Source: Henriciella aquimarina (GTDB lineage Bacteria > Pseudomonadota > Alphaproteobacteria > Caulobacterales > Hyphomonadaceae). From it: a DNA stretch of 64,000 nucleotides. Each line of letters opens with the position of its first letter. Positions within the stretch are counted from its first letter, which is position 1. Shown here one piece after another: positions 4,466 to 10,003 of this stretch. The stretch spans positions 62,001-126,000 of the forward strand of contig NZ_NCST01000062.1 of the NCBI RefSeq assembly GCF_002088975.1, written 5' to 3'. The notes below the pieces were generated by a model. That model had not been told where the DNA came from, did no database searches, and worked only from the letters and a program-made list of their open reading frames with translations. A program made the position numbers and the translations under genes.

Positions 4466-5707
4466 ATGAGAACACTGTCGATTGCCGCCCTGGGCGCGGC
4501 CCTTTTCATCGGCGCCTGTGGCGAGTCAAGGGATCTCGGTGAAGAGACGCCAGTGCCCGAAGCGCCCGCCGAGACGCAACCGGATGAAACCGGCGAGGCC
4601 CCGGCTGAGGAGGCCGCTGCCACGCCCGCAGACTACAGCGACATGGCCAACTGGCTCTGCCATCCAGGCAAGAGCGAGGATGCCTGTTCGGGCGATCGCG
4701 ACTACACCCGCGTCCAGGCGGATGGCACGCTGGAGGTCGAGCGGTTCGAAGCTGCCGAGAACCCGCAGATCGACTGCTTCTACGTCTATCCGACCATCTC
4801 CATGGACATGACCCCGAACAGCGACCTCACGCCCGGCCCGGAGGAAAAGCGCGTCACGGCCCTGCAATTTTCCAGCTTTGCCGAGACCTGCCGCCTCTTC
4901 GCGCCCGTCTATCGTCAGGTGACCCTGCCGCACCTCCAGACCATCATGCGCGGCGGGGAATACAAGGCCGACGAGGATCTCGCCTTCGATGATGTGAAGG
5001 CGGCCTGGCATCAGTATCTCGACACCGGGAATGATGGGCGCGGCGTTGTCCTGATCGGGCATTCGCAGGGCGCGCGCATGGTCGAGCGGCTGCTGCGCGA
5101 GGATATAAGCGGCAGCGCGGCCGAAGACCTCATCGTGTCGGCCATGCCGCTCGGTTTTACCATTTATGGCGATGACGAGAGCGGCGCGGTCGGCCCCTTC
5201 GAACTCTGCACCACACAAGGCCAGACCGGCTGTGTGATCAGCTATGTCAGCTTCCGTTCCGATTTTCCGCCGCCGGCCGAAAGCCGTTTCGGTGTGAGCG
5301 ATGAAGACGGTCGCCGCGCTCTCTGCGTCAATCCGGCGGAGCTGTCGGGCGATGACGGCGCGCTCGATGCGCGCCTGTCGAAGGCCGGTTTTTTCGGGCT
5401 TGAGAATGTCAGCTTCGTGGACGACGAGACCATCGAGACGCCCTATGCCGCGCTGCCCGGCATGCTGTCGGGCGAATGCGTTGAAGGCGACAACCACACC
5501 TGGCTCTCGGTCGATGTGGCGGGCGATCCGTCCGATCCGCGTACCGAAGACATTGCCGGCGACGTGGTCGCGGGCGGCGAGATCCTGCGCGACTGGGGCC
5601 TGCACCTGATCGATGTGAATGTCGCCATGGGCAATTTGCTCGACATCGTGGCTGCCCAGGCCGAGACCTGGACGGCCCGCGAAGCCGCCAACGAGACGGG
5701 GGACTAG
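4466..5707 (+). CDS. DUF3089-type alpha/beta-hydrolase lipoprotein
   Basis: A 413-residue lipoprotein: signal peptide with lipobox IGAC (Cys18), a low-complexity Glu/Pro/Ala linker of about 35 residues, then a DUF3089-like domain (CFYVYPTISMD, residues 104-114, and FAPVYRQVTLP). The nucleophile elbow GHSQG (Ser200) shows an alpha/beta-hydrolase fold; the likely catalytic His lies in the late GDNHTWLSVDV segment. Six cysteines could form disulfides in the periplasm. Substrate unknown. A GGGGGAGGA ribosome site precedes the ATG. It lies in the run of exported-protein genes between purQ and purL. Confidence 0.8.
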   Translation: MRTLSIAALGAALFIGACGESRDLGEETPVPEAPAETQPDETGEAPAEEAAATPADYSDMANWLCHPGKSEDACSGDRDYTRVQADGTLEVERFEAAENPQIDCFYVYPTISMDMTPNSDLTPGPEEKRVTALQFSSFAETCRLFAPVYRQVTLPHLQTIMRGGEYKADEDLAFDDVKAAWHQYLDTGNDGRGVVLIGHSQGARMVERLLREDISGSAAEDLIVSAMPLGFTIYGDDESGAVGPFELCTTQGQTGCVISYVSFRSDFPPPAESRFGVSDEDGRRALCVNPAELSGDDGALDARLSKAGFFGLENVSFVDDETIETPYAALPGMLSGECVEGDNHTWLSVDVAGDPSDPRTEDIAGDVVAGGEILRDWGLHLIDVNVAMGNLLDIVAAQAETWTAREAANETGD

Positions 5708-5721
5708 CGCCTGCCGGGCAC

Positions 5722-6852
5722 TCAGGCCGGGGTCGTGATCCGGCTGGCGAGCGCGGCATGGCCTTCCACGATCCGTTTCACCTGGGCCGGGTCCGGCTCG
5801 ATATTGCCATTGCCCATGTCGTGCGTGCCGCCGAGGACGAGCCCCGTGCGCCGGGGAAACATGTAGAGCACGCCTTCATCGCTTGGCGCGACATAGGAAT
5901 AGTCGATCTCCGGCTGGGGCAGGAGGTGGGTGAGCTGGCCGCGGATCGGCGTCAGGCTTTCGTCGCCAAACAGCGCCCCTGCGCCGAGGCCGGTGCAGTT
6001 GACGATCACCTCCTGCGGTAGGCCCATCACCGCCTCGAGACTGTCAAAGTCACGCGCCTCGAACCGGGCGCCGGCCAGCTGCGCATCCTTCATGATCTGG
6101 TCGAGATAATAGTCCGGATCGATGATGATGGCGCGAAAGCGCTCCATATAGGTATAGCCGAACAGCGTGTTCTCATGCACGCGCTGCAACTCGGGATAGA
6201 GGTCGTCGCCGCCCGGCAGGGGCTGGTACTGGCCGGGCTCGCGGCGCGACAGGGCATGGTGATCGGACCAGTAGACGCCATAGCCGGGCCGGTTCACATA
6301 GGGCAGGAAACCGCGATGCGCCGCCCGGATCAGGACCCGGTTGCGGCGCAGGAAATCCTCGCTGGCTACATCCGGGTCGTAATAGCTTGTCGGCAGCCAC
6401 AACACGCCGGCGATATTCGACGTGGTGTGCGGCGGCAGGGCGGCGGCATAGACGCGGACATCGTGGCCGCGCCGTGCGAGGATAAGCGCGGTGGTCAGCC
6501 CCATGACGCCTGCGCCGAGCACGGCGATGGAGCGTCTGCCCTGCGCAGATGCCATGTCGGCCGCGACGGTAGAGGTGCCCCAGGACATGGTAACGCCGCA
6601 TCCGCCATGCCCGTAATTATGGATGACGGCCTTCTCGCCCAGCCTTTCCGCGTCGAGGCGGTAGCCCTGCGGGCGGTAAGGGCGCAGGCCCACCACCGTG
6701 CGGGTGACCCGGTCCATGGAGGAGTGCACCGGCGCATAGCTGCGCCCCGGCAGGTAGGGCTTGCCGGAGGGCGGGCCGGGCGGTGGCGTCAGCGTCGTGC
6801 AGGCGCCGAGTGAAGCAAGCCCCAGACCTGACAGGACGTCGCGCCGTCTCAT
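5722..6852 (-). CDS. Tat-exported, circularly permuted D-amino-acid-oxidase-like flavoprotein
   Basis: A 376-residue flavoenzyme of the DAO/DAAO family. The N-terminus MRRRDVL followed by LGAC (Cys18) suggests a twin-arginine lipoprotein signal, so the enzyme is probably folded with FAD in the cytoplasm and anchored in the periplasm. Family motifs are present but reordered: GLRPYRP (55-61, with Arg57 where the substrate-carboxylate arginine lies) and VIHNYGHGG (76-84), normally near the C-terminus, come first. The FAD-binding GAGVMG (113-118), VNCTG (284-288), RGQ (304-306) and LGGTHDMGN (340-348) then follow. The protein ends about where the moved block would normally begin. The frame is uninterrupted. 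Likely activity is oxidative deamination of a D-amino acid, but this is inferred. Confidence 0.82.
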   Translation of the reverse strand: MRRRDVLSGLGLASLGACTTLTPPPGPPSGKPYLPGRSYAPVHSSMDRVTRTVVGLRPYRPQGYRLDAERLGEKAVIHNYGHGGCGVTMSWGTSTVAADMASAQGRRSIAVLGAGVMGLTTALILARRGHDVRVYAAALPPHTTSNIAGVLWLPTSYYDPDVASEDFLRRNRVLIRAAHRGFLPYVNRPGYGVYWSDHHALSRREPGQYQPLPGGDDLYPELQRVHENTLFGYTYMERFRAIIIDPDYYLDQIMKDAQLAGARFEARDFDSLEAVMGLPQEVIVNCTGLGAGALFGDESLTPIRGQLTHLLPQPEIDYSYVAPSDEGVLYMFPRRTGLVLGGTHDMGNGNIEPDPAQVKRIVEGHAALASRITTPA

Positions 6853-6995: not shown

Positions 6996-7622
6996 TTATT
7001 CGGAGTCTTCCTCGTCCTCTTCGGACACGTCGACCTCGACAGGCTCGTTCGGGTCGAAGGAGAGCCCCGGGCGGCATTCGTCGACGAGGGTGTTGAGCAG
7101 CTCGCCGGCCGGAATGACGACCGTGTCATAGCCGGTGACGATACGGATTTCGCCTTTCGCGGCGCCCAGCATGTTCGCGAAGTGGTCCTGGGCCGACACG
7201 GCGATCTGGGCCGGCGTGCCATTGACCTGGTAGGAGCGCGAACCGGCGGAGGTGTAGACCGCGATGGACGGGTTGTCGCCGGCGACGGCATCCTCGTCGA
7301 CATAGCGGCGCATGACGATCTGGTTCACACTGTCTTCGCCATTGTCCTGGCAGAAGACGACGAGCTGCCGGTCGCCATTGGCATCGGTGAATTCGGCCCC
7401 GTCATTGCCGCTGACCGTGGCGCTCGCCCATTCGCCTTCGATGGCGCTGCCGGACATTTCGGTCGACATGATCGAATTTTCGAACTCGGTCGTGCCGGAA
7501 CTGCTCGGCTCACCGCTTTGGCCTTCCGGGTGCGGGGTGGGCATGGTCGCATCGGGATCGACGCTGCCGCTGCCGCAGGCGGCAAGTGCAAGAGCGGCCA
7601 GGCTCAGAGAGAGATGGCGCAT
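6996..7622 (-). CDS. Putative lipoprotein of unknown function
   Basis: A 208-residue protein with signal peptide MRHLSLSLAALALAAC (lipobox LAAC, Cys16), a Ser/Pro/Gly-rich linker, a beta-rich central part (IEGEWASATVSGNDG, QLVVFCQDN, IVMRRYVDED) and a strongly acidic tail (VDVSEEDEEDSE). Two cysteines in the mature part may pair. I do not recognise the family. The start was chosen at the signal peptide, with GGAGGA ribosome site 7 bases away; the longer upstream frame has no such features. It is divergent from purL and followed by its own terminator. Confidence 0.75.
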   Translation of the reverse strand: MRHLSLSLAALALAACGSGSVDPDATMPTPHPEGQSGEPSSSGTTEFENSIMSTEMSGSAIEGEWASATVSGNDGAEFTDANGDRQLVVFCQDNGEDSVNQIVMRRYVDEDAVAGDNPSIAVYTSAGSRSYQVNGTPAQIAVSAQDHFANMLGAAKGEIRIVTGYDTVVIPAGELLNTLVDECRPGLSFDPNEPVEVDVSEEDEEDSE

Positions 7623-7750
7623 GGAAATATCCTCCAATCCAGTCTGGATAGTAACTCGAAACATGTTCACCGGGTCCGGTTTAAGCAACACTGGCAGGAA
7701 TTTCCACCACCTATCTGGCGACTCGCAGCACATGGCGTTATGGAGCCCGA

Positions 7751-10003
<2,253 letters not shown>

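Follow-up and report, generated by a model that had tools for sequence, protein, structure and literature searches.

D-Amino-acid oxidase (DAAO) is a textbook flavoenzyme that is exploited in biosensors, in the production of antibiotic intermediates and as a genetically encoded source of H2O2. It belongs to the wider DAO superfamily, whose members carry their chain in what we call the conventional order, with the FAD-binding motif first and the GxRPxR and YGHGG motifs last; the Pfam DAO profile has the same order. The known enzymes nearest to the protein described here are the DAAOs themselves (EC 1.4.3.3; pig 1KIF/1AN9, human 2DU8, Rasamsonia 7CT4, and 1C0I), and D-aspartate oxidase (DASPO; EC 1.4.3.1; human 6RKF, Cryptococcus 9VPF), of which the human enzyme is the top match in both sequence and structure. 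Conventional bacterial DAAOs include Rubrobacter RxDAO and proteins of Streptomyces (L067/L068) and Streptantibioticus (L069). ThiO glycine oxidase and the sarcosine oxidases are superfamily members that share the FAD fold and have the conventional order. A 2022 survey of new DAAOs assigns to the bacterial enzymes the signature GxRPxR plus YGHGGxG, and the word “permutation” appears nowhere in it (PMC9844085); a 2015 review considers the role of DAAO in bacteria to be largely unknown (PMC4699246). A search of openly licensed full texts found no description of a permuted DAAO.

The window, a stretch of 64,000 nucleotides from a draft genome of the alphaproteobacterium Henriciella aquimarina, carries a DAAO-family gene at positions 5722..6852. 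The original prediction proposed for it a circularly permuted oxidase with an unbroken frame and a Tat-lipoprotein signal. The frame is indeed intact, with an ATG start and 376 codons plus a stop, and its coding strand, which the prediction did not state, is the minus strand. Direct reading located each quoted motif at its quoted residues: RRR...LGAC at 2-18, GLRPYRP at 55-61 (6670..6690; this and all other coordinates within the gene refer to the minus strand), VIHNYGHGG at 76-84 (6601..6627), the FAD dinucleotide-binding motif GAGVMG at 113-118 (6499..6516), VNCTG at 284-288, RGQ at 304-306 and LGGTHDMGN at 340-348. The protein thus has in common with DAAOs the FAD motif, RGQ, NCTG, the arginine of GxRPxR, HNYGHGG and the fold of their first ~270 residues, and with conventional bacterial DAAOs the signature GxRPxR plus YGHGGxG (residues 80-86). 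Unlike these enzymes, however, it bears the C-terminal 60 residues at the front, together with an export and lipidation signal. The Pfam DAO profile (PF01266) matches in the native order in two stretches (E 2.7e-33, 116.4 bits), and none of the curated NCBIfam models reaches its cut-off, the best being that of ThiO (TIGR02352) with 54.8 of 250.8 bits. Homology to the DAAO family, by sequence and by fold, is well supported. Because the FAD motif does not come first and GxRPxR and YGHGG do not come last, the protein is better described as a permuted variant of the DAAO/DASPO family than as an ordinary member.

Searches with phmmer against solved structures placed human DASPO (6rkf) first, followed by DAAOs. 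The match to 6rkf falls into two parts, with residues 107-368 aligned to positions 13-270 of the chain and residues 51-102 aligned to positions 281-335 (overall E 2.2e-27, well outside the range of chance), and pig DAAO was likewise matched in two swapped stretches. Such a pattern is the signature of a circular permutation. When residues 45-104 were moved to the end, so that the sequence read 105-372 and then 45-104, the two stretches fused into one that aligns residues 4-326 to 14-335 of 6rkf, and the score rose from 99.1 bits in the native order to 110.6 bits. Pig and human DAAO behaved in the same way, and the Pfam DAO profile was covered in a single stretch over positions 2-353 of 353, with 128.8 bits as compared with 116.4. 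Glycine and sarcosine oxidases are far less similar to the rotated sequence (E 0.0009). We also scanned for the best cut point by rotating residues 40-372 at every third residue and scoring each product against four conventional proteins. All four targets gave an optimum for cuts at residues 93-108, just ahead of the FAD motif, and for DASPO the best single domain rose from 63.2 bits in the native order to 105.9 bits at the optimal cut. These cuts place the break where the helix that formerly ended the chain meets the FAD-binding strand that formerly began it, at a junction comprising residues 105-112 (6517..6540). By these comparisons, the last sixth of a DAAO-type chain now stands at the front, behind the predicted export tag. 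The moved block spans residues 45-104 (6541..6720) and corresponds in the phmmer and rotated matches to pig DAAO residues of about 271-330, and residues 105-372 (5737..6540) account for the remaining fold, conventional positions of about 1-270, in both the VIA-align and the Pfam DAO comparisons.

The permuted proteins make up a stable family that extends across many bacteria. A native-order query found one homologue apiece in 55 of the 105 genomes from the family to which the window belongs, nearly all of them aligned over most of the query, and every one of the first 45 to be fetched matches as a single collinear domain. Wider samples returned homologues in 14 of 385 genomes of the class and in 20 of 398 genomes of the phylum. 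Permuted proteins also occur in Sessilibacter, in an Alteromonadales metagenome-assembled genome (MAG), in the actinomycete Nonomuraea, and on plasmids of Rhizobium, Bradyrhizobium, Niveispirillum and Kozakia; the same plasmid search recovered proteins of conventional order from Streptomyces, Streptantibioticus, Tsukamurella, M. lentiflavum and Burkholderia. With a conventional query, a single conventional form (L074) turned up among 240 sampled genomes of the class, a count that is a lower bound because the query is distant. Where their annotation was seen, the permuted proteins are named only “FAD-dependent oxidoreductase”, and surveys that assume the conventional order could therefore overlook them. 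The Mesorhizobium copy (L062) appears to carry a frameshift, its annotation consisting of two overlapping genes.

With the genome of the window being a draft of 132 contigs, the order of the chain might be suspected to be an artefact of assembly or annotation. The same order nonetheless recurs in dozens of genomes and plasmids independent of this one, a number of which are single-contig or complete, and the spacing between the HNYGH and GxGxxG motifs is conserved. We therefore consider the chance of an artefact to be negligible, and the collinear homologues rule out an assembly error. In all 59 permuted proteins that were aligned this spacing is 33-39 residues, and in 49 of them exactly 35, the near-constant pattern that would be expected of a fixed structural joint. 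Together with the rotation test, these dozens of same-order homologues bear out the proposed permutation at the sequence level.

A second way to account for the arrangement would be to regard the front block as a duplicate or as an unrelated look-alike domain, the true C-terminus having been lost from a decaying DAAO. The C-terminus does end short of the conventional block. Against this, R57, H78, Y80, G81, H82, G84 and W91 of the front block are invariant in 59 proteins, both copies of the block occur in no protein examined, and the gene is under purifying selection, with dN/dS values of 0.15-0.26 against four relatives, for which dS is near saturation. Decay thus appears very improbable, and on this point, as with misassembly, the original prediction has held. 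An intermediate with two copies of the block, as a duplicate-then-trim origin of the permutation would involve, was likewise absent among the proteins examined. The apparent second copy in one protein (L120) scored -1.3 bits and is due to chance.

We obtained a usable structure model of residues 40-372 from eight sequences, with a mean pLDDT of 72 and a pTM of 0.75; a model from only six gave poor confidence (pLDDT 54). Its best-predicted regions, in the eight-sequence version, include the moved-block helix and the FAD strand that follows it, and the junction is modelled as helix, short loop and strand with block-mean pLDDT values of about 90-96. VIA-align placed human DASPO (6rkf) at the top, with a Z score of 12.8 over 234 residues at 4.6 Angstrom (model residues 66..333 against chain residues 2..262), followed by DAAOs with Z scores of 11.4-12.3, and the best glycine oxidase scored 9.7. 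DAAO and DASPO chains were ranked top by Foldseek as well. The DAAO fold was matched over residues 105-372 of the window protein against the first ~270 residues of DAAO, and this moderate-confidence model supports the adoption of that fold by this region. Both VIA-align and Foldseek report a single sequential range, which leaves the moved block (model residues 1-65) unmatched. Residue-level homology suggests that this block occupies the space that the C-terminal block fills in conventional enzymes.

An alignment of 59 permuted and nine conventional proteins reveals how far the active site has been retained. The three glycines of the FAD motif (GxGxxG) are invariant in permuted and conventional sequences, and the positions of R57, P58, R60, H78, Y80, G81, H82, G84, G86 and W91 are invariant in all 59 permuted proteins. 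R57 aligns with pig DAAO R283, the arginine that binds the substrate carboxylate, and VIHNYGHGG aligns with pig DAAO H307-G313; the prediction that the key motifs and this arginine are kept has thus been borne out in the homologues too. The second tyrosine that contacts the carboxylate, Y228 in pig DAAO, is present as Y330 (5863..5865) and is a tyrosine in 47 of the 59 permuted proteins; its equivalent varies among true DAAOs (PMC9844085). No clear counterpart of the active-site lid residue Y224 of pig DAAO was found in the permuted alignment, a further point of difference from DAAO. In human DASPO, R216 and R237 are the contacts to acidic substrates. Neither of the aligned positions in the window protein is an arginine, that of R237 being occupied by H344, and an acidic substrate is therefore not supported; it is in this respect, as well as in its permuted chain, that the window protein is unlike human DASPO. 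Because the parts needed for the DAAO reaction are present, the likeliest activity of the permuted protein would be oxidation of D-amino acids by hydride transfer to FAD. One subclade on a long branch (L038-L043 and L048-L058) has exchanged the GLRPYR glycine for cysteine and carries no LGG motif, and its members may act on a different substrate.

Residues 1-18 (MRRRDVLSGLGLASLGAC; 6799..6852) combine a twin-arginine motif (RRR-D-V-L) with a lipobox, LGAC, that ends in Cys18 and conforms to the PROSITE lipobox pattern, in agreement with the signal that had been predicted. This signal recurs in most homologues: among 71 permuted proteins, which are non-independent, include some near-copies and in a few cases have uncertain or missing starts, the RR motif is found in 59, the lipobox in 56 and both in 52. 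The genome of the window encodes TatC, and the Tat route would be appropriate for an enzyme that acquires its FAD in the cytoplasm. We infer from the signal that the window protein is exported by the Tat pathway and lipidated. The N-termini of the conventional proteins of Streptomyces (L067/L068) and Streptantibioticus (L069) contain no evident signal. Within the branch of Rhizobium and Nonomuraea in the tree described below, four proteins lack a signal, and one relative (L113) bears a Tat-like signal that has no lipobox. With the signal mostly absent there, permutation and export are separate traits.

We therefore favor, with a probability of roughly 0.78, a reading of the window protein as a natural circular permutant within the D-amino-acid/D-aspartate oxidase family that is Tat-exported and lipid-anchored. 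The chain would have been opened between the arginine strand and the helix preceding it, such that the last ~60 residues of the conventional enzyme (the arginine strand, the HNYGHGG block that contacts the flavin, and a helix) now precede the FAD-binding strand and are connected to it through a short loop. Once folded, the protein would in essence be a DAAO, with the parts of the active site at their usual positions. The twin-arginine signal would direct its export with FAD already bound, and lipidation of Cys18 would tether it to the periplasmic side of a membrane. There, the most probable reaction would be conversion of D-amino acids to 2-oxo acids and ammonia, with the electrons being passed to oxygen, yielding H2O2 in the periplasm, or to a respiratory carrier. 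The main alternative to oxygen is reoxidation of FAD through cytochrome c or a quinone.

Gene neighborhoods provide only hints on the role of the protein. The window gene lies between purQ and purL, a setting common to several relatives, and no conserved operon partner was found for it; the neighbors vary by branch. Its other neighbors are a DUF3089 lipoprotein-like gene and an unannotated open reading frame. The former (4466-5707, plus strand) is convergent with the DAAO gene, encodes an N-terminal lipoprotein-like signal (LFIGAC) and adjoins the permuted gene in several relatives too. The latter (6996-7778, minus strand), upstream of the DAAO gene, encodes a putative lipoprotein-like product, and the part of it that was searched (6999-7619) has no Pfam match. 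On the Kozakia plasmid, the permuted gene stands between genes for an S9 peptidase and a cytochrome c, with a beta-lactamase-family hydrolase gene nearby (L065:440-5520, in the order hydrolase, peptidase, permuted DAAO, cytochrome c), in what looks like an exported set for the degradation of peptides or D-amino acids. In Rhizobium and Bradyrhizobium the permuted gene is flanked by genes for an FAD-binding oxidoreductase, which in Bradyrhizobium is of the berberine type, and for a thiamine-diphosphate enzyme, for which the 2-oxo acid product could serve as a substrate. Across three rhizobial plasmids (L060, L061 and L062), the permuted gene clusters with that of the thiamine-diphosphate enzyme in each, and with that of the oxidoreductase in two.

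The cytochrome c neighbor in Kozakia would be compatible with a dehydrogenase too, and not just with an oxidase. It is possible, though on balance unlikely, that the protein is a permuted, exported dehydrogenase of the same fold that passes electrons to cytochrome c or a quinone, or that instead of free D-amino acids it uses such substrates as D-peptides, glycine, or opine-like or N-alkyl amino acids. Its predicted export and membrane tether, the Kozakia flanking genes, the loss of lid residue Y224 and of the arginines for acidic substrates, and the subclade that has replaced the GLRP glycine and lacks the LGG motif are all consistent with such a role. On the other hand, the nearest enzymes in sequence and fold are DASPO and DAAO, with glycine and sarcosine oxidases ranking behind them; the carboxylate arginine is kept, as are most of the tyrosines; and the gene neighbors differ among branches. 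Oxidation of D-amino acids by a member of the DAAO/DASPO family thus remains the reading that we prefer.

Trees were built from rotated sequences with 43 and 57 permuted rows and no outgroup root. In both, a single branch with support of 100/99 separates the permuted from the conventional proteins, the Streptomyces and Streptantibioticus enzymes falling on the side opposite to the window protein. A conventional-order DAAO from the class of the window (L074) has a very long branch. The conventional order is probably ancestral, since it is that of the wider DAO superfamily. Horizontal transfer is suggested by the two gammaproteobacterial sequences, which are nested among the proteins of the window's family. 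The Nonomuraea protein groups with the Rhizobium branch, and when the larger tree is rooted at its midpoint this deep branch comes to lie on the conventional side of the root, as might be seen if the permuted order had arisen more than once. Nevertheless, all permuted proteins lie on one side of the single branch in both trees and their chains are broken at the same place, such that repeated origins seem improbable. More tentatively, and with rather less than even odds, one might propose that a single ancient permutation founded a bacterial family consisting mostly of Tat-exported lipoproteins, which would serve an undescribed periplasmic D-amino-acid pathway and deliver electrons to a respiratory carrier or oxygen.

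A natural permutation that relocates the substrate arginine together with the flavin-contact block reveals which joints of the fold are free, and permuted DAAOs offer ready starting points for engineered versions of the enzyme. If the proposed localization is true, a periplasmic, membrane-tethered oxidase would also be relevant to the bacterial handling of D-amino acids that peptidoglycan sets free. An Asaia “D-amino acid oxidase” listed in a released proteome (PMC12502724) could be a permuted form. Finally, permuted genes on IMG/VR contigs (L071:1420-2454 and L081/L082:2986-4074) adjoin phage-type terminase genes. One of these copies (L071), with a portal-like gene downstream, stops early and is possibly broken. 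A comparable setting, which includes a ParA-like gene, is seen in an alphaproteobacterial MAG (L005). The permuted genes next to terminases may reside in gene-transfer agents or prophages.
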